Virus record (IMG/VR): IMGVR_UViG_3300001533_000045
Location: 1 to 21,503 of that record
From: a virus
Strand: one strand, 5' to 3'
DNA length: 21,503 nucleotides
Shown here: positions 1,848 to 20,900 of the stretch, piece by piece
Layout of the letters: every line of letters starts with the position of its first letter
How positions within the stretch are numbered: the first letter of the stretch is position 1
Made by a program: the position numbers and the translations under genes
Notes under the pieces: generated by a model
The model's database searches: none
Told to the model about the DNA's origin: nothing
The model's input: only the letters and a program-made list of their open reading frames with translations

Positions 1848-2372
1848 TTAACCAGCCTCCAAAAAAAACGGAACAGCGCCAATGTTAATTGGCACCAAGC
1901 GATCAGTAACGACGCCACTAGCAAAAACCACTCCTCCTTTGTCCACTAGGTGCTCTGTTGTCAAGCCACTAGGCGCCTCCATTGCGCTAGTCGTTAGCTC
2001 AAATTGCCCTGCTTGATAGTCATGCTCAAACAATGGGTCGGAAGATTCTTGCGGCACCACCCCACTAACTTTCACTTCTACGGCAGACATGGCGCCTTTA
2101 TTTGTCCAGGTGCCAGTAATTGAATCGCCAGCTTTGTCAACATATAAGGCAAGGTTGACGCCGCTAGTAGTTGTATTGATAGTGTCAATTTGCTGCTGGT
2201 AATTCCCAGTGGAGCCTGCAATGCGTTGTATGTCTACATTGGTGAGGCCAGCACTTTGAAACAAGCCACGAATGCGCTCATAGTCAGCCGTTGCAAGACC
2301 AAGATTGATCCTCGCCTGCGTTGGCGAAGTGAGGTCTGAAAGGTTGTTACTGCGAACAAGTCCTCTAGTCAT
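1848..2372 (-). CDS. Short tail fibre protein with shared N-terminal anchor motif
   Basis: A 174-residue protein starting with the widespread phage fibre motif NLSDLTSPTQARINLGLA (10-27), followed by ADYERIRGLFQSAG and QRIAGSTGNYQQQIDTI, probably a helical trimeric stalk. YVDKAGDSITGTWTNKG (about 79-95) is a common phage fibre segment. The remainder is Ser/Gly/Val-rich beta sequence ending in PFFLEAG. Its anchor and linker match those of the LamG-domain protein at 4747-6081, but no large binding domain follows, so this is a minimal member of the set. The start overlaps the previous gene (ATGA), and its stop is immediately followed by the TTG of the next small gene. Confidence 0.72.
   Translation of the reverse strand: MTRGLVRSNNLSDLTSPTQARINLGLATADYERIRGLFQSAGLTNVDIQRIAGSTGNYQQQIDTINTTTSGVNLALYVDKAGDSITGTWTNKGAMSAVEVKVSGVVPQESSDPLFEHDYQAGQFELTTSAMEAPSGLTTEHLVDKGGVVFASGVVTDRLVPINIGAVPFFLEAG
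1856..1860 (-). promoter_or_regulatory. Ribosome binding site for the TTG-initiated small gene
   Basis: GGAGG on the minus strand, eight bases before the TTG at 1847. It sits within the last codons of the preceding fibre gene. Confidence 0.55.
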
Positions 2373-2893
2373 TCTTCTTCTGCATTAAGCTCATAGTTTG
2401 GCACCACCAAAATACCAGACAGTCCGTTGTTGCTGATGATGGCATTAAGCTCTGCCTGGTCCTCTGCCGTCAGCTCAATTTCATTGTCAATGGAAGCAAA
2501 AACGGTGTTGATGCCTGCAATAAAAGGACGACCAGCACGAGCATCTGCCAAAAAAGCAATTAGCTCGGTGGCATCCACGTTCGCTTGAAGGCTTGTCACA
2601 GCAGCAGCGCGAGCCTTGCCATAGGCTTGGCTTGTCATCAAGCTTTCGCTAAGCCCTTGCCAGTTGGCGCGTTTCAATGCTCGCTGCAAACTGGCGGCCT
2701 CAATCTCTTCTGACGACAAAGCAGTGATTTGCCATTGGCTGCCGTCCCATTGAGCTTTTTCTAGACGAGGATCAAGCAATGGTGCGTCAAATGGGCCAGA
2801 ATAGCCAAGACTTTCTAGGCGTTCCGCAGAAGCCCCTTCAAGCCCTTCTGGCAACAAAGAAGGCGCGCCGCCGTGATAAGAAAAAAGTGCCAT
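2369..2893 (-). CDS. Small fibre-associated protein, possible tail fibre assembly factor
   Basis: A 174-residue protein, mostly predicted helical after an N-terminal segment. It begins with short hydrophobic sequence and a GYSGPFDAPLLDPRLEKAQW stretch followed by WQITALSSEEIEAA, a layout like small proteins next to fibre genes in other phages, some of which act as assembly chaperones. The middle and end (LIAFLADARAGRPFIAGIN, then LTAEDQAELNAIISNN) are helical. No catalytic motif, signal peptide or membrane segment is visible. The ATG at 2893 lies 36 bases after the CLec-type gene without a strong ribosome binding site. Its stop overlaps the next start by 4 bases. The assembly-factor role is a guess from neighbourhood. 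Confidence 0.55.
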   Translation of the reverse strand: MALFSYHGGAPSLLPEGLEGASAERLESLGYSGPFDAPLLDPRLEKAQWDGSQWQITALSSEEIEAASLQRALKRANWQGLSESLMTSQAYGKARAAAVTSLQANVDATELIAFLADARAGRPFIAGINTVFASIDNEIELTAEDQAELNAIISNNGLSGILVVPNYELNAEEE

Positions 2894-2929
2894 GGGATTA
2901 AGCCTGTATTGTCATTGTAATGCTGCTTG

Positions 2930-4744
2930 TCACCTGCTCAGCAGGGAACTCCAGGAAGCAGCGGTGCTTGCAGCCGCCTGATTGATGGCCGTACACCATG
3001 GCCCCGCTGCCGCCCCTGTGGCTCCCCCAACAAGAAGCACGCGCCACCCAGAAGCCGTAGTCGAGTTGTCAGTGATAAATGTCGTTGCAGTGCCGTTTAG
3101 TTGTGGAATGTAGAACAGCCCCGCTTGATCGTTAAAGCCTCCCAAGAACTGTCCAGTAAATGTGTCCGCATTGGCAATAGTTTGATAATTGCCAGCAGTG
3201 TCGTCCGCGAAAACGTTTTGGTTTAGAGCTACTCTGCAAGTGTTGTTTGCTGTGCCCATATTAAAGCCATGGCACCATCGCCAAGTGCCAGCGTAGTAAT
3301 GCTCCACCCCTCGCCATTGCATTGCCGCGAGCTGATCCGCGCCAGCCGTAGAATGGCGACCATCAGTGGTGTTATTAAAAGTGCGATTGCCTTTGTCGTT
3401 GAGAATGCCAAGTTGATAATCTCGTGAACCGGCATTGGCGTCAGGCGTAAAACCTGTGCCGTCACGCCCTCTGCCAATTCCAACGTCGGGGTCTTGAATG
3501 AAAAAGTTGCGATATTCCATCGCAGTGAGTAACTGGCAGGCGTTCCATAGCGCATAGTCGCCATTGGCCCAGCCAGAAGCAATGGCGCGAGCCCTTGTTA
3601 AGCCGGTGGCGCGAGTGTGGCTTGTAAACACGCCAGAAGCCGTGATGCTCTGCAGAACAGTGCCGTCAGTCGTAGCAGGATAAGCTGCAATGTAGCGGTA
3701 GCGGATGGCAGTGCCTGCATTGAAATCGCCGCTTGTTGTTGCAGTGCCGCTAATTGTGTAGTAACCAAAGGCACTACCATCCCATACTCTTGTAACACCA
3801 CTGGCGTCTCGCAGCGTGGTGTAAGGCGATGGTTCAAAGACAGTAGTATTGGTGCCGTCAATGTAAACAGTGCACTCCTCTGTTGTGTCACCACTGGCCC
3901 AAAATGCAGGATGCCTAATCCACTTGTCTTTCTCGCCAGCGCCAAGCAAGTCGTATTGCTGCTTAGGAAGCACGTAATACACGCGCAACGGATCGAGCGG
4001 GTCAGTGCCTGATGGTGACAGCAGTTTGTAATTGCCGCTCACGTCTGCACCAGCAGCATTTTTCCAGCTCAAACCGTCTGTCCAGTCAACGCGCACAAAG
4101 AACTCTGGTACTTCCACCATTACATTGCCGCTGGCTGCGTTGGTGATAATGCCCGTGGCCGTGACAGTGCCACTGGCAGGAGCAGTGCCGCTAACCGTTG
4201 GAACAATACACTCCCACACGGCTCCAGCGTGCGTCACGCGATTGCGGAAGGCGTAGACAGTGCCACTAGCCCAAGCGCCAACGCCTTTGCGGATGTAGCT
4301 ATTGGTGGTGCCATTGCCTGCCTTGTTTTCGCCTTCAAAAATCTTTAGCCATGGACCGGCCAAGAAGTTGCTATCGTCTCCATCTAGAAAGTAGTTAACA
4401 AAGCCTGATGGGTGAAGGCCAACGCGCCTCATGCCGCTTTGCACGCGCAAGTCAGGCTGCGTTGTATAGCCCGATCCTGCAGCCGATGGTCCCGTAAACG
4501 TGGAAACGTTCAGCGTGTTTCTATATTCGTAATACGTGTCGTTGGTTTGATTCCAGATGAATGGCGTGGTGTCCACCATGATGTCTGTAAAGAACGGACT
4601 AGCGCTCACGCCTAAATAGGCCGTAAGGCCACTCACTGTTACTTTCTTGTTGGGCTCGCTAATGTCTCCTGGCGTTTGGATGGGGAACGCATCTGCATCG
4701 CTCAATGAAGATCCAACGTCAGTAAGCTGAGAGATTTTTGACAT
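2930..4744 (-). CDS. C-type-lectin-fold tail protein resembling DGR variable proteins
   Basis: A 604-residue putative receptor-binding protein. The middle has VEVPEFFVRVDW, then IRHPAFWASG and YIAAYPAT, and then GLTRARAIASGW...ALWNACQLLTAMEYRNFF. Near 475-495 lies QWRGVEHYYAGTWRWCHGFN, a variant of the RGIENxxGxxWxWxxGxN motif of phage and bacterial CLec/FGE-like proteins. The C-terminus, SGWRVLLVGGATGAAAGPW (565-583) with a short Ala/Ser-rich end, sits where variable proteins of diversity-generating retroelements carry their variable region. No reverse transcriptase or template repeat is visible in this window, so active diversification is not shown. The N-terminus has its own short helix plus strand anchor. 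Ser-Gly pairs are strikingly frequent (17). The gene follows its neighbour by 2 bases, and a 36-base gap follows. Confidence 0.78.
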   Translation of the reverse strand: MSKISQLTDVGSSLSDADAFPIQTPGDISEPNKKVTVSGLTAYLGVSASPFFTDIMVDTTPFIWNQTNDTYYEYRNTLNVSTFTGPSAAGSGYTTQPDLRVQSGMRRVGLHPSGFVNYFLDGDDSNFLAGPWLKIFEGENKAGNGTTNSYIRKGVGAWASGTVYAFRNRVTHAGAVWECIVPTVSGTAPASGTVTATGIITNAASGNVMVEVPEFFVRVDWTDGLSWKNAAGADVSGNYKLLSPSGTDPLDPLRVYYVLPKQQYDLLGAGEKDKWIRHPAFWASGDTTEECTVYIDGTNTTVFEPSPYTTLRDASGVTRVWDGSAFGYYTISGTATTSGDFNAGTAIRYRYIAAYPATTDGTVLQSITASGVFTSHTRATGLTRARAIASGWANGDYALWNACQLLTAMEYRNFFIQDPDVGIGRGRDGTGFTPDANAGSRDYQLGILNDKGNRTFNNTTDGRHSTAGADQLAAMQWRGVEHYYAGTWRWCHGFNMGTANNTCRVALNQNVFADDTAGNYQTIANADTFTGQFLGGFNDQAGLFYIPQLNGTATTFITDNSTTASGWRVLLVGGATGAAAGPWCTAINQAAASTAASWSSLLSR

Positions 4745-4746
4745 TG

Positions 4747-6081
4747 CTAACCAAGAACAAAGGGAGAGCCGTCTTCCAACAGAAGGCTTTGTCCGTTTTC
4801 TAATTCTATGGGCTGGGAGCGGTCAGGGTCGAAAGAGAAGTCATATCGCCACTTGAAATACTCTTCCATGGTATTCAGCTCGCGCAAGTCAAGCGTTCTA
4901 TTGAAGAAAGCAACGGCAAACATGGACCCGCCTAAGAATCCTGCGGTGCCCCCAGCATTTGCACCAAGCGTGTAGACGCTACCAGGGTCGTAAGTGATGG
5001 TTGGAGCAAAAGCGTTATTAAGCAGCCCTTGCCTCCTGCCATTGATCCTTAGCTCTAAGCCAAAGGCTTGACTGGCCCGAACGCTAAACACAAAAGTGCC
5101 GTTAGTAGGCATCCTTTCAGGAAAGCCTGAACGCAGTGTGCTTGTGAACAAACCAAAGTTGCCATTGCCGGTGCCAGTGCGCCACCTGTTGCTGGCATTG
5201 TTAAGCGTGCCTAGCAAGTTGTAAATAGAATTGCCTCTTGCACTAGGCTCTCCCAATGCTGCAACAATAATGACTGTTGCACCTGTCGGGAATAAGCTTG
5301 AAATGTTGCCAAAGCTTAGGAAGTCATTGTTGCCATCAAACACCACCGCAGGCTTGCCATTCAAGCTGTTCTCCACGAACAATGGTCTATTGGCGCTGCT
5401 TTCTTGGCTGGCACGTCCTCGCCCTAATACATCCTCCCATCGCCTCACTGCACCACCTTCCTGCACCACTGGGCTGTACTCGCTGTCCAGCCACAGCACG
5501 TTGCCTTCGATTTGCACAGGAGAAGGCAAGTATAACGGGCTAAGTCGCTCGTCCCAAGATGGCTCTTCCTTGACAATCAGGAAGCGTTTGTAGCGAACGA
5601 AAAAGTTGTTCCACGCAGGAGTGATGCCTTGGTAGTTGAAGCCGCTAACAGTAGTGGTGTCAGCCGTGACAGTGCCAAGCTTGTACTCGCCGCCTTGGCT
5701 AAAACCAGAAGCCGATGGAGGGGAGAAAAATGATTCAACAGAAGGCGCAAAAATGCTATTGGCAGCATTTGCATAGGGCCTGTCATTGTTGACGGTTTGA
5801 GCAAGAATTGTACCTACGCCCGTGTCACCATTCTTTTTGACTTTGCCCAAAAGCCCCGCAAGAAACACAGTGGCGCCTGATGCGCTTGCATTGATTTGAT
5901 CCTCCAGAGGAGCCCTTAAGCCTGCAATGGCAAAGTAGTCCGCCGAGGTGATGCCTGCTGCTGCCGTATCAACAAGCAGCGGTAAGTCATTGCGGCTAAT
6001 CCCGAGATTGTCCCATGCACGATTTCTGTCAAGAATCTCAGACAGGCTATTGGCAGCACGAAAGCCAAACTGTTGCGCCAT
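4747..6081 (-). CDS. Tail adhesion protein with LamG/concanavalin-like domain
   Basis: A 444-residue protein. The N-terminus has a diverged form of the shared anchor (NSLSEILDRNRAWDNLG, 11-27). A linker with TSADYFAIAGL and KKNGDTGVG follows and resembles the smaller fibre protein at 1848-2372. Residues about 195-412 form a LamG-type beta sandwich: NVLWLDSEYSPVVQ, VRRWEDVLGRG, ANRPLF, the hallmark LNGKPAVVFDGNNDFLSFG (240-258), LELRINGRRQG and the closing GSMFAVAFFNRTLDLRELN. The C-terminus (PIELENGQSLLLEDGSPFV) is a short acidic tail of a type seen in other phage proteins. Such domains bind glycans or proteins, so a receptor-binding role at the tip is inferred. It overlaps the previous gene by one base and ends 2 bases before the next. 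Confidence 0.8.
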   Translation of the reverse strand: MAQQFGFRAANSLSEILDRNRAWDNLGISRNDLPLLVDTAAAGITSADYFAIAGLRAPLEDQINASASGATVFLAGLLGKVKKNGDTGVGTILAQTVNNDRPYANAANSIFAPSVESFFSPPSASGFSQGGEYKLGTVTADTTTVSGFNYQGITPAWNNFFVRYKRFLIVKEEPSWDERLSPLYLPSPVQIEGNVLWLDSEYSPVVQEGGAVRRWEDVLGRGRASQESSANRPLFVENSLNGKPAVVFDGNNDFLSFGNISSLFPTGATVIIVAALGEPSARGNSIYNLLGTLNNASNRWRTGTGNGNFGLFTSTLRSGFPERMPTNGTFVFSVRASQAFGLELRINGRRQGLLNNAFAPTITYDPGSVYTLGANAGGTAGFLGGSMFAVAFFNRTLDLRELNTMEEYFKWRYDFSFDPDRSQPIELENGQSLLLEDGSPFVLG

Positions 6082-7190
6082 TAGCTACGCCCCGCCTTTG
6101 CATACAAAACAAGGCTATCACTTTCAACGGGGATAGCTCGTTCAGGAGCAGCGATTGTTCCTGATGGCATGGCATCTTGAAGCCTAAGCTCTTGCGGTAT
6201 CCCCAAAGAGGAAATCAGTAAAGGAGCCGTGGCTGTAGAGCCAGAAAACGGGCTTCCTGATATTGATGCCACGCCAACGCCATTCACTTGCAAACTACTT
6301 CCGTCCAATGCGCCGCGAGAGAGTGCGTAGTTCCCTTCAGAGACCGGCGATGCCTTGAGCAGGGCATTGTCCTGCAGGACAGTGCCGGAGCTTGCTGCAG
6401 CCGCTGCAGCGCTAATGCGAGGCTGTGCAGCGCTTGTCAGTCCTCTTGTGCGAATGAAATCGACAGCAGAAGCGCGGCTGGCTCCATTCAGCGCAAGAAT
6501 GTCGCCTGCAGTGAGACGAAAGGAAATAGGACTGGAGGCAGTTACAGGCTCCCCTGACGTGGGCTTGTAGTCTGTCAAAAAATAGCTAAACTCTACACTT
6601 GCTCCCCATAGAAAAATACCAGACAAGCCATCGGGGGTTTGCGGAGCAAAGCCAGTTATGATCCTAAATCTGATTGCTGTTTGAGTGGAAAGAGTTGCGC
6701 CAAGACTTAGCCGAGACCAGCCATTGTCTAAATTGATAATTTGAGCGAGAAAAGGCTCGCCACTCTCCTCCCCGGTAATAGTATTTACGTCCAAATTGTA
6801 ACCACGACTGGTTAATACGCCCCCTCCCACTGGCTCCAGTCTGAGGCTCAATCTTGTAAACTCGCTAGGTTTGGCAAATACTGAAAAGATTGCCGCCGAG
6901 GCATTGGGCGGGCGCTGAATTAAAACATTCACGCTTCTCCCTACTCCCGTAGCCTCTAAGTCAGGAATCAGCTTGTCGGCAGTATTGGTGCCATTTGGGG
7001 CAGTCGTAACATTGCTTGCAACTGTTGATTGATTTTTTACCCACTCCGATGCCGCAAAATCCTCGCTTCTAGTGGCAAAGTTAGTCGTAGTAATTGTTGC
7101 GTTAACGCTTGCCCCTAGATTATTCCACGCTGCAGCAGGGTCCGCAACATCGCTCAAGTTTTGCGCTGCAATCAGTCCAGGCAGTGTCAT
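6081..7190 (-). CDS. Tail adhesion protein with carbohydrate-binding-like sandwich domain
   Basis: A 369-residue protein. The N-terminus carries a short fibre-anchor motif, NLSDVADPAAAWNNLG (11-26), also found in variant form in two other proteins of this window. Residues about 35-215 form a domain common in phage fibres that resembles carbohydrate-binding jelly rolls: FATRSEDFAASEW, then TAPNGTNTADKL, FSVFAKPSE, the Gly-Trp-x-Arg strand NGWSRLSLGA, and the closing GIFLWGASVEFSYFLTDYKP. The rest (about 220-369) is Ala/Ser/Gly-rich with no recognisable domain. GGAGG seven bases before the start supports the ATG at 7190, and the stop overlaps the next start. Binding to surface glycans is an inference from the domain type; no enzyme motif is seen. 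Confidence 0.72.
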   Translation of the reverse strand: MTLPGLIAAQNLSDVADPAAAWNNLGASVNATITTTNFATRSEDFAASEWVKNQSTVASNVTTAPNGTNTADKLIPDLEATGVGRSVNVLIQRPPNASAAIFSVFAKPSEFTRLSLRLEPVGGGVLTSRGYNLDVNTITGEESGEPFLAQIINLDNGWSRLSLGATLSTQTAIRFRIITGFAPQTPDGLSGIFLWGASVEFSYFLTDYKPTSGEPVTASSPISFRLTAGDILALNGASRASAVDFIRTRGLTSAAQPRISAAAAAASSGTVLQDNALLKASPVSEGNYALSRGALDGSSLQVNGVGVASISGSPFSGSTATAPLLISSLGIPQELRLQDAMPSGTIAAPERAIPVESDSLVLYAKAGRS

Positions 7191-9577
7191 TACTGTTCCT
7201 CCCAGTTCAACGTAGCACTTGCAACACCGCTTCCAGTTCTAGCAGTTGCCACCACAAACACAGCGCCGCTGTTAAAAGCAGTGCCTGGCTTGCCGGTGAT
7301 GAACATCTTGTCAGGCCCAAAAAGCCCAGAAAGGTCAAACTGCTTGGTTTCTCCGCTGCCTACAAAGTACGTTGATATGCGCTGAGGACTGCGCAATGTC
7401 CGGTAGCCTTGCGTGTCTACAAGCACTGCAGACAATGGATCGGAAGATGATGCCTCAAACTTGTTGGCAACGTAAGTAGTGCCGCCTGCAGCAGCGCTAT
7501 CTTGCGTAAGGCCGCTAACCGCCGACCAAGCGCTCACTGCCTGCGCAATGCCGCTGCCGGGGGTCTGACGCTCTTCTTCGTCGCCCAACACCACCACCAC
7601 GTCATTAAGCTGCGAACTGTCCATGACTTCCGCGACAAGCGAAATAGGCCACAGTGAAGTGGTGCCTGAAATTGTCAGTGACACGCCATTTGTGGGAAGC
7701 GATGGGCCAGTAAAAGTGATGACACTGTTCGACGAGCCGCTAGGCACCACAATTTCAAAAGAAGCCTGCCGATAAGGACCAGTTGGAAACGCTTGTTCGC
7801 CAATCACATTTCCTTGAAGGTTGTAATTCAGTCCCGTGTAGCTGCTTGCAAACCACAGCGCATCGTCATAGCTTGCAGCGCCGCTCCACAATGCGCCTAT
7901 GCGCCATTGCCCTCCACCACCATTGAAAAACACGGTGCCACGTTCCACTCCGCTAGGAATGACGCCACTAGCTAAAGCGCTTGCATTAAGCCGCGAAAGC
8001 CTGACGGAAGTTGTGCCAGCAGGAATGGGCCGATCAGTGACAATTTGCGAAGCACTGGCAGTAACAACGTGCGTGCTAAAAATGCCAGCACCAGTCACCC
8101 TTACGCGCCTGCCTTGGCGATAGTCAGTGGTGCCGCTTAGCTCTGCTGAAATGTCAGGAAAACTTCCATTCAGCACATTGTTCCCCACCCTAGTCACGGG
8201 AATTGCAGCGCTTGCTCCCCTCACCAGATTGGTGCCATTCCCATAGAAATAGCTTTCCCCTGCGCCAACGGCATTATCCTGTAACACCACGTCAAAACGC
8301 GCTGGCACCGAAGCAAAAGCAGCCAAGCTGACGGGATACACTGCCTTTTGATTGTCCACGCTATTGATGGTACCTTTCACTTGCAGCCCTAAAATTGTTC
8401 GCCCAGTGTCATCAATGGCTTTGGCTGCTTCCAGAGGAGCGCTGCCAATGGTCACCGTGCCTTTGTCGCCGCCATCAATGTAAACGCTGCTGCCATACAA
8501 GTTGATAAACGCTGGAGATTGTGCGCCTGCAGTGTTACGCGCTTGTATAAACATCTTCATAAAAGCGCTTCTCAAGCTAGGGAACTCAAGCTGGTTTTCA
8601 ATGATTACATAGTGCAACGACACCCATCGAGCTTCATCATGGCCAACAGGCACAAAAGCAAAAAACTTTGCTCCAACTGCTCCGTACCAACTAAACTCAA
8701 TTTTGAACATCGTCACCTTAGACAAGTCCAGCACCCATCCCGTACTGGTCTGGCCAATGCTCACTTGATCGCCATTCCACTCGCTGCGCGGAATCTTGAT
8801 TTCTTCAGTGGCAGTGGTAATAGCATTGAACCGCCTGTAGATGATTGACAGGTCAACGCCACGATCTAACTGAAAATAGTAGCCGTCGCCATAGTCATTG
8901 CGGCAGCCCCATTGCACAACTTCCCCTTCATAATTACTACCTGTTGACATGCGAGTGCCAAACGTAAAGCCTGTCACTCTGCCAGGTTGATAACGGAATG
9001 CACGCTTGCTTTCCCAAAAGGCATTCATCACTCCATCAGTGAAGCCGCCAGGAAAACGCCCAGTGCCATCATCGGTGGGGAAAGCAAAGCTACTTGGGGG
9101 AGGGTAGCAGTATGCTTGGATGGCACTTTCGCTGGGCAAGTGGCGCCTAAACAGGCCAAACCTATCCCGCTCTGTCCATGCAATAGGGTCTTGGTTGTAA
9201 GTGTAAGCAAGGCGATTTTGCACGGGCGGACTAGGCGCCCATTCCTTGGTGTTGATGCCATAAACGTTGATAGCATCAAGCAAGCCAAGCGCAGTCTCTG
9301 CGCGTTCAACACCTAGCAACGTAACGGCCACTTCACTCTGCTGCCTGTTGGTAATGCCAATGGCGACAGACGACTCGTTGCTAATGACAAGCGGCACGTT
9401 GCGGCCATCAGCAGTCAACACCCTTGTCTGAACAGCATCCCCTATCAACGCCTCCTGCGTAGATGGATCAACAAGAAGCTGACCCGTAGAAAAATCAATC
9501 AGCTCACTTTCAACTGACACGCTGCCAGCGGGCTTGGCATCATCCGCAATTTGATACCGTTGCCGTAGATCGTCCAT
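7190..9577 (-). CDS. Large tail fibre / receptor-binding candidate with C-terminal insertion
   Basis: A 795-residue protein paralogous to the preceding gene. Shared landmarks are VPLVISNESSVAIGITNRQQ (61-80), SEVAVTLLGV, HLPSES, FRYQPGRV, DGYYFQL, SKVTMFKIEFSWYGAVG (286-302), ARWVSLHYVIIENQL and VYIDGGDKGT, plus the C-terminal YFVGSG...DLSGLFG and LNWEEQ. It differs in about 50 extra N-terminal residues (including an IDFSTGQLLVDPSTQEALIG stretch) and an insertion at about 425-735 that is Ser/Gly/Thr-rich, beta-strand-like and contains GGGGQWRIGALWSG. The insertion probably adds one or two binding domains. AAGGAG five bases before the ATG is the strongest ribosome binding site in this part of the operon. 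It ends in a TAATG overlap with the next gene. Exact function is unproven. Confidence 0.75.
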   Translation of the reverse strand: MDDLRQRYQIADDAKPAGSVSVESELIDFSTGQLLVDPSTQEALIGDAVQTRVLTADGRNVPLVISNESSVAIGITNRQQSEVAVTLLGVERAETALGLLDAINVYGINTKEWAPSPPVQNRLAYTYNQDPIAWTERDRFGLFRRHLPSESAIQAYCYPPPSSFAFPTDDGTGRFPGGFTDGVMNAFWESKRAFRYQPGRVTGFTFGTRMSTGSNYEGEVVQWGCRNDYGDGYYFQLDRGVDLSIIYRRFNAITTATEEIKIPRSEWNGDQVSIGQTSTGWVLDLSKVTMFKIEFSWYGAVGAKFFAFVPVGHDEARWVSLHYVIIENQLEFPSLRSAFMKMFIQARNTAGAQSPAFINLYGSSVYIDGGDKGTVTIGSAPLEAAKAIDDTGRTILGLQVKGTINSVDNQKAVYPVSLAAFASVPARFDVVLQDNAVGAGESYFYGNGTNLVRGASAAIPVTRVGNNVLNGSFPDISAELSGTTDYRQGRRVRVTGAGIFSTHVVTASASQIVTDRPIPAGTTSVRLSRLNASALASGVIPSGVERGTVFFNGGGGQWRIGALWSGAASYDDALWFASSYTGLNYNLQGNVIGEQAFPTGPYRQASFEIVVPSGSSNSVITFTGPSLPTNGVSLTISGTTSLWPISLVAEVMDSSQLNDVVVVLGDEEERQTPGSGIAQAVSAWSAVSGLTQDSAAAGGTTYVANKFEASSSDPLSAVLVDTQGYRTLRSPQRISTYFVGSGETKQFDLSGLFGPDKMFITGKPGTAFNSGAVFVVATARTGSGVASATLNWEEQ

Positions 9578-9582
9578 TCGCT

Positions 9583-9588
9583 CTCCTT
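9583..9588 (-). promoter_or_regulatory. Strong ribosome binding site of the 795-residue fibre gene
   Basis: AAGGAG on the minus strand, five bases before the ATG at 9577, overlapping the TAA stop of the 580-residue paralogue. The two paralogues therefore differ in translation signal: this one is strong, while the upstream paralogue's is very weak. Confidence 0.65.
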
Positions 9589-11329
9589 ACACTTGCTCTT
9601 CCCAGGTCAGGGATGCGCTTGCATTGATAGTGCCAGAAGATGATTCAGCAAACACATAAAGAGTGTCGCCAGTGATTGCAGTGAGAGGGTAGGAAAGATA
9701 ATCCTTGTTGTAGCCAAAATAAGGAGACAAGTCAATGTCAATTCCGCCAGTCCCTACAAAGAACGTAGCAACAGTAGTGCCGCCGCTAATCGTTGTTACA
9801 CCACTGGATACGGTTGATTCAATGGGGCTAAGCGTGTCAGTGCTGGAAAATGTCGGCGTACCTGATACCAGCGTCGGGTTTTTAATGAGCTTCACCACTC
9901 CACGCCCGCTAGTGCCCACGCCAAGGCGCGTAGGATACACTTGCATCCTGTTGCGAATGGAGTTGATGTTTTCCTTGGTGCGCAAACCAAGCAGCATCAC
10001 GCCGCTAGTCGTAACGCTCCTGTCAGTGCTATTGCTAACACTTCGGGCAGTAATCGTACCCTTGTCGCCACCATCAATGTAGTAAGACGCACCATATTTA
10101 TACACTGCATTTTCATTGCCGCTAGTAGCTTTTTGCACTAGGTAGGACATTGGCAGCGTAGGGTTGCCAAGGCTAGGGCTGGTAAGTTGGTTGGATGCCC
10201 TAATGTGGTGCATCCTCACCCATCGAGCTTCTCCCGCAGTAGTTGCATCAGGCACATAGACCAAGAAGTGGCCACCAACAGCACCGTACCAGCTATATTC
10301 AATCTTAAACATTGTGACTTTAGAAAAGTCAATGTCCCACACTGAACGGCGCGTGGCAATGTTCCCTTCGTCGTCCAGCACAAATGACGAGTTGCCATAG
10401 GACACCGATGGGGAAGAGGCCGTGCCACCAACGGTTACAGTGAAACTATTGCGGCCAGGCGTGCGGTCTGCGTAGTATTGCGTGCGTGTTTCTGCATCAA
10501 GCCGGTCATGGCTGAAAAACTTACGCGGCACCCTGTATTCGTAGGTGTAGCGGTAGTCGTCAGGGACCGTCAAGAAAGCCGCAGCCACGCTTGCCGTACC
10601 ATTGGAAGCAGCATTGCCGCCGATGTTGTTGCCGACGCCTCGGAGGCTTAAATCAAACAATGCAGCATGGATGTAGGTGAGGCCAGCGCGGACAATTACT
10701 AGATCAGTGCCAGCCGTGCCAATATCACCATCGCCAAAGTTCGGCGTACGAATGCCTATTTCATTGCTCTCAAAAGCACTGGACCGCCTCACGCAGTAAA
10801 AGTTCAGCTCCTTGTCAGCAATGCTCGTTTGCCCGCCGCCTTGCACTTCGACGTAGTAACCATCACGCTTATCAAACGCACCAAACTTCTTAACGTCTGT
10901 GCGATCAGTGGTGGTGTTCGCCCTCACGCCAAAGGTTGCAGCACTAACGCGCCCTGGCTGGTAACGGAAGAATCGTTTGCTGCCTAGGATTTGATAGGCA
11001 TTGGTATCACCAACGGCAAGCACAACCTTTGCTGCGCTTTCAGACGGTAGGTGCGTAGTGGCGCCCGTGCCTTCGCTCTGCCATTCGTTTGGGTTGATGT
11101 CGTAAGTGGTAACGTCAGCAAAGATGCCCAGCGCCACTTCAGACCGTGGAATGCCAAGCAAGCTCAGGCTGACTTCGCTGATCTGCTGATTCTGCACCTC
11201 GACAGGCACAGGCTCCTGATCGCTGGCAATGACTACTGGTAGGCTATCTTTTGCGCGTTGCGGACCTGGCGGGATTGGTGCCGTCCTGCCAACGGTTACA
11301 ACTGCTACGCCTTCTTTTAAGTCTGCCAT
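9587..11329 (-). CDS. Large tail fibre / receptor-binding candidate, paralogue of the next gene
   Basis: A 580-residue virion protein. Its N-terminus includes KDSLPVVIASDQEPVPVEVQ, a stretch often seen near the N-termini of phage fibre proteins. A large domain (about 90-470) contains HLPSES, FFRYQPGRV, DGYYVEV, SKVTMFKIEYSWYGAVG (336-352), ARWVRMHHIRASNQL and YYIDGGDKGT. The same landmarks occur in the same order in the gene at 7190-9577, so the two are paralogues. Both also end alike, with FFVGTG...DLSPYFG and LTWEEQ. Relative to its partner it has extra sequence at about 170-330 and lacks the 250-residue insertion near the end. The start has no good ribosome binding site, unlike its partner. 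A binding role is inferred from position and architecture. Confidence 0.75.
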   Translation of the reverse strand: MADLKEGVAVVTVGRTAPIPPGPQRAKDSLPVVIASDQEPVPVEVQNQQISEVSLSLLGIPRSEVALGIFADVTTYDINPNEWQSEGTGATTHLPSESAAKVVLAVGDTNAYQILGSKRFFRYQPGRVSAATFGVRANTTTDRTDVKKFGAFDKRDGYYVEVQGGGQTSIADKELNFYCVRRSSAFESNEIGIRTPNFGDGDIGTAGTDLVIVRAGLTYIHAALFDLSLRGVGNNIGGNAASNGTASVAAAFLTVPDDYRYTYEYRVPRKFFSHDRLDAETRTQYYADRTPGRNSFTVTVGGTASSPSVSYGNSSFVLDDEGNIATRRSVWDIDFSKVTMFKIEYSWYGAVGGHFLVYVPDATTAGEARWVRMHHIRASNQLTSPSLGNPTLPMSYLVQKATSGNENAVYKYGASYYIDGGDKGTITARSVSNSTDRSVTTSGVMLLGLRTKENINSIRNRMQVYPTRLGVGTSGRGVVKLIKNPTLVSGTPTFSSTDTLSPIESTVSSGVTTISGGTTVATFFVGTGGIDIDLSPYFGYNKDYLSYPLTAITGDTLYVFAESSSGTINASASLTWEEQV

Positions 11330-12428: not shown

Positions 12429-12827
12429 TCAGATTACCAAGAAAAGGTAGCGTTGGTTCGGCACTTGCCTGCCATCTGCCAATCTTACAGTCTGGCCTGT
12501 TGAAAAATCAAAAGCAAGAGGACTGGAAGGTGTAACAATGCTGTAGGCCCACGGGGAACGTGCACCATCAGTGCCAATTGTAGCCACTCTTATTTGATAC
12601 ACGCCGCTTTCTGCGTCAACATCAGCAGGAAAACGAACAAAATTGGTTGTCGTAATGCCAATAGGTATCCACACGCCATCCTCCAAGTCCAGATATTCCA
12701 CTTCAAACGCAGCAATCAGTGGATTGTTCTGCAGGCCATTCCAGCAAACGCCAGGATTGATGGCAAAGTCAAAGAGCGATGGGGAGGAGTATTTAGGGAA
12801 CTCCCAGGCCACCTCGTTGTAAGACAT
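12429..12827 (-). CDS. Small tail tip protein with FN3/Ig-like domain
   Basis: A 132-residue protein encoded immediately after the J-like hub (TAATG overlap, GGAG ten bases before the start). Residues about 35-100 read as a single fibronectin-III-like beta sandwich: an EVEYLDLEDGVWIPIG strand pair, then GVYQIRVATIGTDGARSPW, the usual FN3 F-G strand pattern. The end (FDFSTGQTVRLADGR and following) is a separate short extension. In lambda-type phages such domains lie inside J, downstream of the hub, so this may be a detached J domain that binds the hub. No frameshift signal joins the two: the J stop is clean and the downstream start is well placed. Function is inferred from position and fold. 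Confidence 0.75.
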   Translation of the reverse strand: MSYNEVAWEFPKYSSPSLFDFAINPGVCWNGLQNNPLIAAFEVEYLDLEDGVWIPIGITTTNFVRFPADVDAESGVYQIRVATIGTDGARSPWAYSIVTPSSPLAFDFSTGQTVRLADGRQVPNQRYLFLVI

Positions 12828-14914
12828 TAGCTTGGCGCTCCAAGGATGATGCTTCTGTTGTCAATCACTGGCAGCGCTCTCTGCTGAGCGTTGCCAATCC
12901 TAGCCGTGCCAAGAATCGTGTCATTATCAGCCAAGGCAAACTTGTCTTCTGCATAGGTGACGGCATTGACAGTTACCACTCCGTTGTCCTCTGCAGCCGA
13001 CAGCACTCTGAACTTCCTGGCGCCTTGACTGTTCTCTTGCAGCACCCACACGGCTCCCGCCTGCGGAGCAGTAGAGAATCCAGGGGATACGGTGATGGCA
13101 GCCTTGGTGCCGCTTCCAGATGTGACTGTGCGCGTTTGAGCAGTGCCGTCAGGCAGCATCACGCTTAGGCTGTAAGCAGCGCCAGTAAAAGCAAAGTCGG
13201 CATCCAAAACCAAGCTAGTGGTTGTGGCGCTAACAAGCCTGCCGCCATAACGCTTTTGCCCTTTAGCGGGATCTGCAATGCCAATGATTTCCCCTGGCAT
13301 CAAGAAGAAGCCTTCTGCAGCCACCTTAAACGTGACCGCCTCTGTTTCTAGCTGGTCCGTTAGCAACGCCCATCGGCCAATTCTTTGTGCTTGCCCTTGC
13401 GTGGTGGTGCCGAAAGCGCGAATGCTTAGCTCGTTGTAGCCATATCGTTCCAGTCCTGCCCTGTCTTCAACGTATTCAACCTTTTCTTTGTAGAAGTCAT
13501 CAGGATCATTCCAGCTAACAAGCGCAATAGTTTTCCTTGCTTTTCTAGCAGTGCCTTCATAGGCAAATGGCGGTTCGGTTACATTGCCCTCTTCATCAAC
13601 CTGCTTGATGACATTAGACGGGTTGAAGATTTTTGTGACGGCTTTTGGCACGTCTTGAATGGGGACAATCTCGCCGCCTTGGTAGTAAAGCATTCCTCTG
13701 AACGTGGCGGCAATGCTGTTCAACACGTCATACGCTTCTCCGCGAGTGGTAATGTACGCATTGAAAGTAAACCGTGGCTCCCTTCTGCCTTTGCCATCAG
13801 GAACTAGCTCGTCGCAGTATTGGCCAATGGCATATAAAGCAAACTTGTCCACTTGCTCTTCTTTGATAAACTCCCCCGCCCCATACCTTTCATTAGTCAG
13901 CAAGTCATAAAACACCCACGCCGGGTTGTTGGAATAGACAGTTTGGAAGGTGCCGTTCCAAATGCCAGTGTACGTACGAGAGTTTGGCCTGTAGTTAGAT
14001 GGCACTTTGATCTTGATGCCAAGCAAGTCAGCGGAAATACGCGGCACGCTTGTAAAGTTTTCGGCGCCTAGTTTTAGGCCAATCAGCGCAGTATTGGGGT
14101 AGCGAAATGATTGATCAACAATGCCAACAATGCTCTTAAAGAAAAAGTCATCACTGATGCGTCCACTGGTGGGGTCGGCAGTAATTCGCCTAACGCCTAC
14201 AGTCCAAGGACCAGCACCAGACAGCCTATATTCATACTCAAAATCAACAGCTCCTCTTGACTTGCCAGTAATAGCCCTGCGTTGATTGACAATAACAGTG
14301 CCAGTAGACGTGGTAATCCTCACCCTGAACTCAACCTTGCTGCCCTTTACGTCGCCATTGTTTTTAACGAAAAACAGGCTGCCAACTCCCACGCGAATAC
14401 GCAAGCGATTGAACAATGAGGAGGTGGTTGTTTTTACAATTTCACCTAATTCGTTCGTCACTTTTGTGTCAACTGATTGCTCTACGCGCACATCATCAAA
14501 GCCAACCATTGGCGCTTGGTTTTGCGTGCCAACACGGTAATCGGCAACTGCTCCATTGACTTCCCCTACAGAATCGTTCCTGACAAGACCAGGCGTTTTT
14601 GCATTGATTGTTGGCACAAGACTTCCTTTGCCAGCTTCCGCGCCGGAGCTGCCAGTGAAGATATTGGTTAGGGCAAAGTTGTAGCGTCCTTTGTCTGTCT
14701 TGATTGGTGTATCATCTAGGTAAATGCGAGTGAGAGGATCTGCTCTAGGTCCAAATCCTTGGATTTCCCCTTCTGAAATGACAGCCACAATCTGCGCGTC
14801 AGAGCGGCTTCGTAGGGTGTCAGGATCTTCCTTTGCACGCTTAGAGCCGCTTTTGCCGCCCCCGCCAGCACCGGAGATTAGCTCGTCTTCAAGCAGTTCT
14901 TCTGTCAGCATCAC
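12827..14914 (-). CDS. Tail tip central hub / host specificity protein J-like (short form)
   Basis: A lambda gpJ-type hub that closes the tail tube and carries the receptor-binding parts. The N-terminus has the classical J signature: a Gly/Lys-rich linker followed by DTLRSRSDAQIVAVISEGEI and YLDDTPI. The middle (about 320-445) resembles the phage tail-tip hub domain, with GIWNGTF, NPAWVFYDLLTNERYG and YQGGEIVPIQD. The protein ends at residue 695 in NRSIILGAPS, against 1132 in lambda J, so the FN3 and C-terminal fibre parts are missing; an FN3-like domain is encoded by the next gene. GTG at 14914 and ATG at 14911 are both possible starts behind GGAG; the ATG would give a TGATG overlap with the I-like gene. 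The stop overlaps the next start as TAATG. Confidence 0.92.
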   Translation of the reverse strand: MMLTEELLEDELISGAGGGGKSGSKRAKEDPDTLRSRSDAQIVAVISEGEIQGFGPRADPLTRIYLDDTPIKTDKGRYNFALTNIFTGSSGAEAGKGSLVPTINAKTPGLVRNDSVGEVNGAVADYRVGTQNQAPMVGFDDVRVEQSVDTKVTNELGEIVKTTTSSLFNRLRIRVGVGSLFFVKNNGDVKGSKVEFRVRITTSTGTVIVNQRRAITGKSRGAVDFEYEYRLSGAGPWTVGVRRITADPTSGRISDDFFFKSIVGIVDQSFRYPNTALIGLKLGAENFTSVPRISADLLGIKIKVPSNYRPNSRTYTGIWNGTFQTVYSNNPAWVFYDLLTNERYGAGEFIKEEQVDKFALYAIGQYCDELVPDGKGRREPRFTFNAYITTRGEAYDVLNSIAATFRGMLYYQGGEIVPIQDVPKAVTKIFNPSNVIKQVDEEGNVTEPPFAYEGTARKARKTIALVSWNDPDDFYKEKVEYVEDRAGLERYGYNELSIRAFGTTTQGQAQRIGRWALLTDQLETEAVTFKVAAEGFFLMPGEIIGIADPAKGQKRYGGRLVSATTTSLVLDADFAFTGAAYSLSVMLPDGTAQTRTVTSGSGTKAAITVSPGFSTAPQAGAVWVLQENSQGARKFRVLSAAEDNGVVTVNAVTYAEDKFALADNDTILGTARIGNAQQRALPVIDNRSIILGAPS

Positions 14915-15534
14915 GCTGCCACTCCAACAGTAGAGATGGAGGAGCTGATAATGAGAGGGCTTGCAGCTAGGAACCTCCCATAGAGCAATGGCACGGGCAA
15001 GCCTTGGTTGGACGTTTCCGTGGCATTGTCAAACAGAAAACTGTCCAGTTTTTCGGAGTCGCCAGGAGTTTTAGGCGATGGGGTGAGGAGTTGTGCAACG
15101 CCTGACAAGGCAAGGCCAATGCCAATGTTGCCAGCCAATGCAGCAAGGCTTCCTGCAACGGCAGCCGCGCCTCCCGTAGTCACTTGACTGGCAAATGCAA
15201 GGCCAGCAAAACCTGCACCAGACGACAAAATTGCCACTGAAATTAAAGCAGCACCCAACAAAATGCGCCCTGTTGCGCCAGCACCGGACACCACTGGAGC
15301 AACAATCAGCCTCTTACACCCCATCGCAATTTCTTCATACGTCATACCTTCGGGGTCTTCATCCACTAGACGAAAGCCCATGCCGTTTTCATGCGCAGTG
15401 GCCAAATATTCCCGAAACCCTTTTAACTGGTGGGACAATGCACTAATCACTTGCTTTGGACTAGCCGCATCAAACTCGTAATAACGTCCAAACTTGCGCC
15501 CCAGCTCTCCAAGCAACTTCACTTGAACAAACAT
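14911..15534 (-). CDS. Tail tip assembly protein I-like
   Basis: A homologue of lambda gpI, needed for early tail-tip assembly around J. I place the start at the ATG at 15534: it overlaps the K stop as TGATG and has AAGGAG eight bases upstream. In-frame TTG and GTG codons at 15540 and 15537 would add two residues but lie too close to that site. The 207-residue product begins with a ubiquitin-like beta-grasp domain (about 1-80). A long Gly/Ala-rich hydrophobic stretch (about 82-150) could form one or two membrane-spanning hairpins. The C-terminal tail carries the family hallmark LLTPSP, then NQGLPVPLLYGR. The order K-I-J is the lambda order. The family is recognisable; its biochemical role is poorly understood even in lambda. 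Confidence 0.88.
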   Translation of the reverse strand: MFVQVKLLGELGRKFGRYYEFDAASPKQVISALSHQLKGFREYLATAHENGMGFRLVDEDPEGMTYEEIAMGCKRLIVAPVVSGAGATGRILLGAALISVAILSSGAGFAGLAFASQVTTGGAAAVAGSLAALAGNIGIGLALSGVAQLLTPSPKTPGDSEKLDSFLFDNATETSNQGLPVPLLYGRFLAASPLIISSSISTVGVAA

Positions 15535-16256
15535 CACCAAAGCTCCTTGTGACGCAAGATTTTACAAGTGGCTTTTTTCCAATAGCCACCATAAACATTG
15601 GCTTCGGACAGTCTATCAAGAAGGTGGTGATAGAAAACACCAGCTTGCTCATCCGCCATGACGCCCACGTGATTTGGTCTTGCTGCTTGCAATTGCATGA
15701 GGATCATGTCGCCTCGTTGTGGGGAGCTTGTGCATTGCCTAAACCCTTGGCTTGCAAAGTTTTGCTCAAACATGTCCCATGCTGGACTTGACCACTCCTG
15801 CTCTTCGCCTCGCGGAAAGTCATCTAGCTCAATGTCAAACTCTCTAAACAGAAAGTCTTTCAGCAGCGAGTAGCAATCGTGGATGCCGTAGTGCCATTGC
15901 CTGCCAATGTAAGGTGCATTGCCAGTTGGGTCTGCATAATGCCAGTCGTCAGTGTCGGTGCAATACATCACCCATGGCGTGTTTGTTGCCTTACAAGTTG
16001 CAACGTCGCTGGGGCTGAACTTGTTAAATCCGCTGGTGTGGGAATGAAAAAATGCTTCAATGTCCCCTTTGTTAGATGCCTTGATGTAGTCCTTTGGGCA
16101 AATCGTGAAGTATTTTTCAGGCTCAGGATGGATGTTTTTGCATGGCCAGTATTGACCTTGCACAACCAGCCCGCAAGCTTCTTTGGGCGCCTCTTCAAAG
16201 ACGTGCTTCAACATGTCGCCCTGAATGGAAACGATGGAAAAAGGCAGGACGTTCAT
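15534..16256 (-). CDS. Tail tip peptidase K-like: JAMM metalloprotease + NlpC/P60
   Basis: A lambda gpK-type enzyme carried at the tail tip, expected to cut peptidoglycan peptides at entry or to act in tip maturation. Two domains are visible. The N-terminal JAMM/MPN domain (about 8-100) has a complete zinc-site set: E26 in EACGL, H71-S-H73, and S81-P-S-D84. The C-terminal NlpC/P60 domain (about 118-235) has its nucleophile at C128 in YGIHDCYSLLKDF, the partner histidine H196 in PNHVGV, and H210 or H211 in VFYHHLLD as the third polar residue. Both active sites look intact, and the length of 240 residues is normal. The gene starts with ATG overlapping the L stop. The Shine-Dalgarno signal is weak, so coupling to L translation is likely. 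Confidence 0.92.
   Translation of the reverse strand: MNVLPFSIVSIQGDMLKHVFEEAPKEACGLVVQGQYWPCKNIHPEPEKYFTICPKDYIKASNKGDIEAFFHSHTSGFNKFSPSDVATCKATNTPWVMYCTDTDDWHYADPTGNAPYIGRQWHYGIHDCYSLLKDFLFREFDIELDDFPRGEEQEWSSPAWDMFEQNFASQGFRQCTSSPQRGDMILMQLQAARPNHVGVMADEQAGVFYHHLLDRLSEANVYGGYWKKATCKILRHKELW
15543..15548 (-). promoter_or_regulatory. Ribosome binding site deciding the I-like start
   Basis: AAGGAG on the minus strand, eight bases before the ATG at 15534. It lies inside the end of the K-like gene and favours the ATG over the upstream in-frame TTG and GTG codons. Confidence 0.7.
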
Positions 16257-16933: not shown

Positions 16934-17943
16934 AGGTCGTACACCTTCCGAAGCCTAAAGCGAAACACATTAGCATCTTTGCCTTGAATGCTCCACGACC
17001 AGCGGTTGTCATCTAGGCGATACTTGGCCACGGCAGGCTCGTCTTTCAACTTAGAAAAGAAGAAGTCGCCTTTCCTGTTGCGCAGCGTGGTGTTCAAGCT
17101 TGCCGCTTGCGCATCAGACAATGGCAAGGTTTCAATGGTATAAACCACAATGTCAGTGTTGATGCCATCAGGCGCCACTTGCTCATAACCATCGCCAAAC
17201 TGTGCTTTGCGGATGCGGGAAGTGCGATCAATGTTGATTGCTTCGCGGCATGGAATGTCTGCCGTGTCAGGCATCACCTCCAACACTGAAAACTCACACA
17301 CGTAGCCATTTTCATCACTTGGCGTCCATTGCCACTCATACGGGCTTAGGCGGTACAGTCGTGGTGCAGCGTCCAAGTAGAGCTGAGAGTAGAATGAGCC
17401 GCCTTGTAGGCCCTGCAGGATGGCTTCCAGCGCCAACGCAGACGTGCGCGACACTGGCCTTGTCCTCACTTCCACTTCCTTGATGGACCGCGACTGAGCA
17501 GAAGGTGTTGCCGTACCAGAAGCGGTTGCAATGCGAATGATATTGCTGCTTATAGATTGAGACTGCGTTAGTCCATAGTCAATGGCAAACTCAACGGTTG
17601 GCTCGTAAACCTGCTCAACGCTAAAAGTGAACAGATTGGCAGTGGGGCCAATAACTTGCCAGTCCCAAGTGTCGCCAATGATCCTATATTTGTACGTTTG
17701 ATCGTCAAAATAGAACTGGCTAAAGAAAAACGAGCCTTTTAGCTCTGTAAGTTGCCTATCTAAAGCAATAGCAATTTCGTTATCAATGGGGACGGTCTTG
17801 ATTTCATAGGCAGCCGTCAGTTGCCCATCGCCGCTTGGTACGGCATTGCCGCTAGTCGTTGCAAACTTTGCCACGTTGCCATACGTGGCCTTTGTGACCG
17901 TCAGGCCATATTCACAAGGCAGCGCAAAGATGGGTTGCGTCAT
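16930..17943 (-). CDS. Minor tail protein M-like, three tandem gpM domains
   Basis: A tail-tip assembly protein in the position of lambda gpM, directly after the tape measure and before the L homologue. Lambda gpM is about 109 residues; this protein is 337 and consists of three diverged copies of that domain. Matching landmarks recur every 110-111 residues: GSFFFSQFYFD (70-80), GGSFYSQLYLD (181-191) and KGDFFFSKLKD (291-301), each followed by a Trp-x-Trp motif (DTWDW at 91, YEWQW at 202, NRWSW at 313). Only the third copy keeps the canonical RKAQFGDGYEQ signature near 245-255, so it is probably the ancestral copy. The ATG at 17943 has AGGA eight bases upstream and overlaps the tape measure stop. 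The role is inferred from family and position: a ring or plug joining the tape measure end to the tip. Confidence 0.88.
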   Translation of the reverse strand: MTQPIFALPCEYGLTVTKATYGNVAKFATTSGNAVPSGDGQLTAAYEIKTVPIDNEIAIALDRQLTELKGSFFFSQFYFDDQTYKYRIIGDTWDWQVIGPTANLFTFSVEQVYEPTVEFAIDYGLTQSQSISSNIIRIATASGTATPSAQSRSIKEVEVRTRPVSRTSALALEAILQGLQGGSFYSQLYLDAAPRLYRLSPYEWQWTPSDENGYVCEFSVLEVMPDTADIPCREAINIDRTSRIRKAQFGDGYEQVAPDGINTDIVVYTIETLPLSDAQAASLNTTLRNRKGDFFFSKLKDEPAVAKYRLDDNRWSWSIQGKDANVFRFRLRKVYDL

Positions 17944-20900
17944 CGCCTAGATCCTGCCAGTACGCCGCCTGGACGCAGTTCATTCACGATCACTTGCTTC
18001 ACTGCTCCTTCTATCCTACGCCCAAAGTCAGAAGCGTTAGAGCTGTCGCTACTTTGCACGTTGCCATTGCCGTCAATGTTGATGACAATGCTGCTTTGAA
18101 CATTGCTCGCCCCGCCGCCTAGTTCAACGGGAATAGATCGACCATCAGGCAATGGGACAACGGCTTCGTTGTAACGGCCTTCGCCCATGAGACTGAGCGT
18201 AGGGCCTGTGATGATACCTCCCGTGGCAAAAGCACCAGTGCTAAGACGCTGCGAAAAAGGCAGCACTTGCAGCGCTTCTGGAAGAGGAGGCAAAGGCTGC
18301 AATGCGGGCCATTGAATAGTGGCGGGAGCAGGGGCAGCAACTTCGGCGGCGCCAGCGCCAGGAGCGGCAGCAGACAACGGCGACGTGGCTCCTCTTAATG
18401 CGCTAAACAAGTTGGGAGCATTTTGCGCAATTTGTATTTTGGCCCATTCAGCAATCATCCTTGCAACCATGTCACCAAAGGAGTCGGCAATGGAGCGGAA
18501 GAATCCAGCAAGCGTTTCCTTGGCGGAAGCCGTGCCAGAAATCATCCCTTTGAACACTTGCCCAAATGAATCGCCCATGGCATTAAGAATGTTATCTACG
18601 CCTTCTGCCTGCACGCGGAATAATTGCATTTGCCTAGTGGCGTCTGCAACCAAGCTAGATTCAAAGTCTGGATCACCTTGACGCAAAGCATCTTCAAAAG
18701 CCCTAGCGGCATCGCCAGAATAGCCAGCCCGCAAACCTCGCCCCAAGAAGTTGCGCTCTTGCAAGATTCTTTCTGCTTCAGTTCGAGCACTTAATTCTCT
18801 TGGTATTCCTGAACGCTTTTCAAGGCGAGGTTCTATTCTATCTAAAAGACCAATTTGATTTTCGTACGCCTTGCTAATGTCGCTTTCTGTTTGTTTTCTT
18901 TCTTCAGCGTTTTCTATCAACGCAGCCTGCCCCAATGCGCCTGTTTCCGTTGCTTTTGCTTGAGCCCTAGCGAGGTCAAACATTGCTTGACGCTCGGCTC
19001 TTTCCATTGCCAATTCAGGCACCATGCCATCACGCATCAAGGCTAACTGCCTAGTCAAAGTATTCTCTTGTTCTCTAAAGCTTCTGTTTTGAGCTGCGAT
19101 AGCGCTGCCTTGCTCAGTAAACTGCTTGAGAATTGCGTTGACAATGCCAGACTGCCTACTAAGAGCATTGTTAGTGTCATCTACTTGCCCTTGCGTGGTT
19201 GACAGGGCATCACTGCCAGCTTGCACGCGAGCGTCAAGGTCTTGCGTGTTTACACTGGGAACGTTGACGCTGCCAGTTACCGGCCTGAAAGGAACGCTGC
19301 CTTGTTGTCGCAACGCTGCAATTTGCCTATCAATTTGCAAAAATTCGGGCGGAATTGTGAAAGGTTCCCCTTTCTTGGGACGATACAACGGCCCTTGGAC
19401 AGGATCAAACCCTTCCATATCCAGCACTCTTCCGGCGCCTAATGGCATCCTTTGCATTTGCAGCGATTCTCGTTGCAGCATGAGGGCAACAATCTTCCCT
19501 GCGTTTTCTAATCTTCTTGCTGCATCGCCAGTACCTTCCGAAATGATCCGCGCCACGGCTTGCGCATAAGAGCGTTGGATCTCGCCGTTCCTTCTGGCAT
19601 AGCGTTCTCCTGCTTCGTTAATGGCATCAGCATTAGTCTTTTTGAACGCCTCAAGATCACGCGCTAGTTGTAGTTGCCTGTCTTGCGCTTCCTCTTCCCT
19701 AGTGATGCGTTCTTCCGTGTATTGACGAATGATCTCGCCAGCACGTTGTTCCGCCTCAATGACGCTTTCCCGCTCTCCTGTCAATGGGGCCTCTAGTGTT
19801 CTGACAAGGAAGCCTTCTTCTGTAGTGGCGGCCTGCAGCTCTCGGCGGGCGCGAGCAAGTTGACGCTCAGCTTGCAGTCGAGCATCTTGATACCTACGCT
19901 CCAGGCCTTCAGCCTGCTTAATGGCATTGATCCTTGCTTGAGCAATGTCATCTTCGTACTGCTCTCTGGACTTGGCAAGGCTTTCCTCTCTACGCTCTAC
20001 AGCATCTAAATAAGCCTGCGCTTGGCGCTCTAGGTCTCGCGTGTCTGTTTCTTCGCCCTGTGGCGCCATGCCGCCACCAGGGCCGCCAAACTCTAGCCCT
20101 TGAGCACCAAGAGCCGCTTGGCCTCCGCGAGCCTTGAAAGCTTCCTCTAGCTCAGCGCGTCTTTTCTTTAGTTCTGCAACGCGACGTGCGGCTCTTGCAT
20201 CACCATTGGCTTCAGCCCGCTCGATTTCTTGGTCAATCTTTTTGATCTGCAGCGCATAATCAGCAACATCCGCCATGTCAAGCGCCATGCGAATGTTCAA
20301 TACTAGATTCTGAAAAAACTCTGAAATGTTATACAAGAGCCCGCCAATAATGCCAGTAGTGGTTCTGACAATTTTGACCAACACGCCAAACACATAGGCA
20401 AAATCTTCTGCCATTTGCGTGATAGTTGCCCTGTTCTCTTTAATAAAGTCAGTAATATATCTAATCCATTCAGCAAGAGAGTCTTGTATATCAGCACCAC
20501 TTGTCCCAAAGGTGGAGCCAATGGCAACTTGCATTTGCTCAAACGCAACAGCAAGCCTCCTTCCTGCAAACTCAGGAGCAGTCGCAAGCTGCTCACTAAA
20601 CTTTGCATAGTCTTCGTAATTAGATTTTGCAAAATTGATAAACTCTTCAATGCCAATCGTGCCGCGTTGCAAACCAACTTGCAACTCTTCAAAGCTAAGT
20701 TTATTTGCCTGAGCAAACCTCAACACTGCGCCAGGGAATCTATCCCCCAACTGCCCGCGAAGTTCCTCTGCTTGCACTTGTCCCTTGCTAAGGATCTGCA
20801 CGACAGCACGCATGGCACCATCAAGGTCTTCAGCGCTGCCGCCAGCAGCAGACAGCGCTAAAGCCGTACCTTCTAGGATTTCTGCAGTGTCCTTAACGGA

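Follow-up and report, generated by a model that had tools for sequence, protein, structure and literature searches.

Some phages continually rewrite tail proteins like the one described here with an error-prone reverse transcriptase (RT), altering which cells are bound. The window (the whole stretch of DNA analysed, 21,503 bp, which is the complete available IMG/VR record, linear and probably a fragment) encodes a tail protein that resembles a target of such a diversity-generating retroelement (DGR). The locus raises the question whether the end of this protein is a variable region (VR) still being rewritten from a template repeat (TR), or whether the fold is used without diversification. The evidence set out below indicates that the gene is likely an orphaned, frozen DGR target, from whose usual slot the TR-RT cassette has apparently been deleted.

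Genomic context and likely host

The open reading frame at 2930-4744 (minus strand) is real and intact, encodes 604 amino acids, and sits in a siphovirus tail module with the following components:

17940-21398, tape measure, matching annotated tape measures
15534-16256, NlpC/P60-JAB protein of the tail module
12827-14914, J-like tip protein, best match in Synechococcus phage S-CBS4 (49%)
4747..6081 (-), upstream flanking tail gene, a conserved neighbour of the cassette slot
2930..4744 (-), DGR-target-like tail protein, 604 aa (ORF; phrog_5302; relatives L001-L011)
2369..2893 (-), downstream flanking gene, which comes after the RT in DGR-bearing relatives

The initial annotation had assigned the motifs of this region to the end of a tip protein. 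The region does encode a tail protein, matching PHROG 5302 'tail protein' across aa 330-603 (3.7e-31), but as a separate gene several genes downstream of the J-like protein, with several virion proteins encoded in between. The virus is likely to infect cyanobacteria, because the relatives of one of these virion proteins (9587-11329) occur in nine phage records, every one a cyanobacterial phage by name, and because the J-like protein best matches that of S-CBS4. The adjacent virion proteins encoded at 7190-9577 and 9587-11329 are paralogues, both belonging to phrog_1645.

Eleven relatives of the target (L001-L011) were found in IMG/VR, and nine full-length or nearly full-length ones share 72-78% identity and the same ending. 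A megablast search of the phage collection and a scan of genome contigs with the target each yielded no relative, and a scan with the downstream gene brought in no contigs beyond those already known.

Parts of the target protein

The following parts of the protein can be distinguished:

4625..4744 (-), N-terminal adapter of ~40 aa, from tblastn matches confined to the first 40-92 aa
4181..4276 (-), CBM5/12-like carbohydrate-binding stretch, aa 157-188 (Pfam PF02839)
2933..3667 (-), predicted C-type-lectin (CLec) domain of the FGE subtype, aa 360-604 (AlphaFold2, Foldseek, hmmsearch)
3260..3313 (-), core motif RGVEHYYAGTWRWCHGFN, aa 478-495, counterpart in alignments of YRGIENxYGNxxxWxDGI in DGR targets
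2996-3052 (-), second motif SGWRVLLVGGATGAAAGPW, aa 565-583
2933..3049 (-), variable-region equivalent, 39 codons, from alignment to the VR of true DGR relatives

The two motifs on which the initial annotation had relied, RGVEHYYAGTWRWCHGFN and SGWRVLLVGGATGAAAGPW, are placed where it put them. The N-terminal adapter is 38-58% identical over the first 40-92 aa to proteins of loci among L039-L101 (tblastn), and in a score of related contigs these first 40-92 aa are kept at or near the slot and the remaining protein is different. Such reuse of an adapter is as would be expected of an interchangeable receptor-binding protein with a swap site at this point. The CBM5/12-like stretch, which scores marginally below the PF02839 cut-off of 26.2 bits in the window protein (26.1 bits, 8.6e-6) and above it in the relative L002 (26.8 bits), hints at carbohydrate binding.

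Predicted fold of the C-terminal domain

A profile scan with the C-terminal domain collected 80 loci, and 68 sequences were aligned for modelling. The resulting AlphaFold2 model of aa 360-604 (pLDDT 75.5, pTM 0.77) found significant Foldseek matches in the PDB solely among chains of 5VF4 (E 7e-6, probability 1.00), which is the Thermus aquaticus variable protein TaqVP, a CLec protein of the FGE subtype (PMC6328139). An hmmsearch of the PDB independently returned a single match, again 5VF4 (2.8e-7). The superposition has a high rmsd (9.2 over 326 columns), attributed to inserts, so that the match rests on the core together with the independent sequence-profile match. In a viral library the matches were mostly tail fibres, one of them named after a Treponema variable protein. 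A PDB search with the single sequence gave nothing useful, and a full-length AlphaFold model built on only ten similar sequences (pLDDT 27) was discarded. The claim of a C-type lectin fold is thus supported by both predicted structure and profile search, and the domain is of the FGE subtype found in CLec-fold DGR variable proteins. As for the fold comparison that had been proposed, the model is CLec-like with TaqVP as the best match, but Mtd of Bordetella phage BPP-1 was matched only weakly (E 0.4-1.6).

Diversity-generating retroelements behind the same gene in relatives

In five IMG/VR relatives (L002, L007, L008, L009 and L025) a TR lies directly behind the target gene, and in four of these an RT gene is also visible, the contig of L002 ending first. 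The L007 target is followed by 54 bp, the TR, the RT and then the next gene, with TR and RT filling a slot of about 1.36 kb. The differences between TR and VR fall on TR adenines in 22/22 cases in L002, 28/28 in L007, 23/23 in L008 and L009, and 21/22 in L025. The RTs of L007, L009 and L025 carry IGNYLSQ at residue 184 and YVDD at residue 216, the former conforming to the (I/V/L)GxxxSQ signature by which DGR RTs are defined (PMC3521204). Three relatives thus combine adenine-confined mismatches with a DGR-type RT. Among 61 loci of the wider family, 38 have both TR and RT, five a TR only, two an RT only, and 16 neither, some of these last being cut by contig ends.

Because of this majority and of the adenine-specific TR/VR differences in relatives, the family of the window domain is, by sequence comparison, a family of DGR targets. 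The DGR relationship suspected at the outset is borne out at the family level, decisively so by the close relatives with intact TR and RT behind the same gene, and this rules out a chance resemblance to DGR targets. At one locus of the family (L179, 2222-2546 and 2671-3642), the repeat in the TR position adjoins an intact RT and is adenine-poor at the variable sites, with 20 differences of which 2 are at its adenines; this template has possibly been overwritten by itself.

An empty slot in the window

The window lacks both components. No RVT_1 match, and hence no RT, was found in its 21,503 bp, and an adenine-tolerant scan of both strands found no TR-like repeat of the tail of the gene; the initial observation that neither is present in the window was therefore correct, and an active local DGR can be rejected. 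The gene order is the same as in DGR-bearing relatives minus the cassette, as it is in L001 and L003-L006. What remains in the window is the following:

2894..2929 (-), empty cassette slot of 36 bp, the next gene starting 36 bp past the target stop
2898..2921 (-), probable remnant scar left by the end of the RT gene, ATTACAATGACAATACAGGCTTAA (ITMTIQA*), from similarity to the L009 RT end

The scar is identical to the end of the L009 RT gene at 16 of 24 positions (67%), in register; it is the unique best among the 156 TAA-ended 24-mers of its strand, of which the next best has 13 identities, and its distance to the next ATG is 4 nt, as in intact relatives. It is good but short evidence, and is probably a remnant of the RT 3' end. 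The RT remnants in the empty slots are largest in L001, which retains the spacer, ~9 nt from the start of the TR and the final 25 codons of the RT gene; L003, L004, L005 and L006 retain a short RT-like 3' end, and the window has the shortest. An empty syntenic slot with a remnant of the cassette, the mark of an orphaned target, is therefore found in the window, where the probable remnant is short, as well as in L001, where it is strong. The initial annotation had not foreseen that a cassette might have been lost rather than never present, and these remnants point to loss. L006, with an empty slot, and L025, with an intact cassette, share 95% identity in the 180 nt that follow the slot and 91% across 2.6 kb, so that presence or absence of the cassette changes between close kin.

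In L005 (2962-3219) and L006 (3012-3211) the empty slot is occupied by an unrelated stretch of 200-258 bp. The two stretches begin alike (TTGGCTC..CGC..) and may represent a different small element, or what is left of a gene, in the place of the cassette.

The probable former variable region

It had been proposed that the final 40 codons could be a variable region, and the last 39 (2933-3049) do align with the VR of DGR-bearing relatives, which has 41 codons; the C-terminal region is homologous to a DGR VR from which two codons and the near-invariant cysteine of CGPW have been lost. VRs that are accompanied by a cassette show no deviation from their own TR at non-A sites, except for one site in L025. 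In the cassette-less L001 and L003-L006, 8-32% of non-A sites deviate from the nearest TR, which is close to or below the divergence of the gene body where the two can be compared. The window tail differs from its three nearest TRs at 35-37 of 89-90 non-A sites (39-42%) and from a fourth at 46%, exceeding the 27-31% divergence of its gene body, and the window is the longest branch of its clade even when the VR is left out. These figures fit a tail that is no longer reset by a template. Of the two possibilities originally offered, a fold used without diversification is now the better description; active diversification is unsupported, since the usual slot holds no cassette and the VR skeleton has been lost. 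NNY codons at former AAY sites of the window tail (about 8/11, by eye) were too weak an indication to use.

The target genes of L004 (9939-11825) and L006 (1203-3211), both with empty slots, are 94% alike, and here the VR differs at 50/32/9% of codon positions 1/2/3 as against 3/2/13% in the gene body. This pattern suggests recent DGR action with no visible RT: either the cassette was lost recently in both lineages, or a remote RT acts on them. The two target genes belong to a highly identical patch with diverged sequence on either side, and recombination together with recent loss can therefore explain their VR differences.

An independent series of losses

Elsewhere in the family a second series runs from L123, which is intact, through Synechococcus phage S-EIV1, which has a TR and an internally deleted RT, to L132, which is empty. 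S-EIV1 is a cultured freshwater phage with a complete genome (L012, KJ410740.1), in which 21081-21608 is an unannotated DGR relic with 27/30 VR/TR differences at adenines; an intact RT was found nowhere in this genome. AHV82156, a 29-aa ORF, agrees with the start of the L123 RT in 26 of the 27 residues aligned, the lone difference being the start residue (M versus a TTG-coded L), and the bases past it resume at the RT end, from which it follows that the S-EIV1 RT has suffered a large internal deletion. By blastn, the target region of L132 shares 97% identity with that of S-EIV1, but the stretch with the TR and the RT stub is absent from L132. The literature searched contained no mention of the DGR relic or the RT deletion of S-EIV1.

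Origin of the empty slot

The record is a 21.5-kb fragment, and the target could be diversified in trans by a TR and RT elsewhere in the genome, beyond the contig, as DGRs with remote targets are known (PMC4891356). L004 and L006, which have VR differences of the DGR type and no local cassette, likewise speak for such an arrangement and against an orphaned target, but their genes lie in the recombination patch and recent cassette loss explains both of them too. A degenerate pattern scan of IMG/VR located TRs of the family in five contigs only, each directly behind the target, although a divergent TR may be missed by a pattern built from known TRs; the RT of the target's family is known at the slot only, and a TR still in use would keep restoring the VR backbone, which the window tail no longer has. 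A trans-acting DGR is accordingly considered unlikely. None of the five placed members of the small clade to which the window belongs has the cassette, which might mean that this lineage never had a DGR and that its relatives acquired the cassette later. This is very improbable, given the pieces of RT 3' end left in the empty slots, which in L001 are unmistakable, the intact L025, whose TR backbone is closest to those of L004 and L006 and whose flank is closest to that of L006, the order target-TR-RT in relatives as remote as Psychrobacillus phage Perkons (where 32/32 mismatches are at A), and the predominance of TR plus RT in the family.

An assembler that joined across the cassette or merged variants might also produce an empty slot, and it may be reasoned that imperfect repeats ~200 bp apart can mislead assemblers of metagenome contigs such as these. 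Had VR and TR collapsed, however, spacer or TR sequence should persist along with an intact RT, and both are gone here; the flanking genes are both intact and in register, five other contigs have different junctions, and deletion of the RT occurred independently in the cultured, complete S-EIV1. An artefact of this sort is scarcely credible. Loss of a once resident cassette remains the likely history of the window gene. Ancestrally, a template repeat of ~125 bp and a DGR reverse transcriptase would have lain behind the target gene, the enzyme copying the TR with errors at adenines and the cDNA replacing the last ~40 codons of the gene for a distal tail, presumably receptor-binding, protein of a cyanophage-like siphovirus. 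After deletion of the TR-RT cassette in the window lineage, the final few RT codons would remain ahead of the next gene, the C-terminal FGE-type C-lectin domain would be a former DGR target, and its binding surface would now be fixed, with ordinary mutation and recombination as the only sources of change.

Comparison with known systems and implications

TaqVP (PDB 5VF4) resembles the window protein in having an FGE-subtype CLec domain and a C-terminal VR, but is part of a complete prophage DGR, whereas the window protein is longer, with an N-terminal adapter and a CBM-like stretch, and its TR and RT are gone. Perkons (ORF176/ORF175) has a homologous CLec target with TR and RT, and differs in its complete DGR, its distant host, and an identity of ~32% over the domain. 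In S-EIV1 (AHV82155/AHV82156) a homologous target, 33% identical, accompanies a destroyed RT, an orphaned or decaying DGR that, unlike the window, still keeps its TR. Mtd of BPP-1 is a CLec-fold, receptor-binding DGR target of an active DGR, in which a sequence relationship to the window protein was undetected and the similarity is confined to the weak match in fold. Target genes with neither RT nor TR in Treponema denticola isolates were read as remnants of loss (PMC4891356), as were RT-less VR fragments and orphan targets in Nanoarchaeota (PMC4372165). Those orphans are in cellular genomes, whereas the present case is a phage tail gene at which deletion junctions and RT remnants are visible. 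Orphan DGR targets being already known, it is the stepwise loss seen at a tail locus of phages that is of interest. DGR catalogues are usually built on the RT, and RT-less targets are thus overlooked.

A more speculative extension, which we regard as doubtful, is that the cassette is a disposable engine: cassette-carrying cyanophages would make tail variants, and loss of the cassette, or recombination of the target into cassette-less phages, would fix successful binding surfaces, so that orphan alleles like that of the window would represent the stable outcome of a cycle of diversification and freezing. The presence of a DGR-type fold does not by itself imply active diversification. Loss of the cassette is visible stepwise at one phage locus, including the cultured S-EIV1 and the close present/absent pair L025 and L006, which allows one to ask whether phages keep or discard hypervariation after a receptor match has been found.
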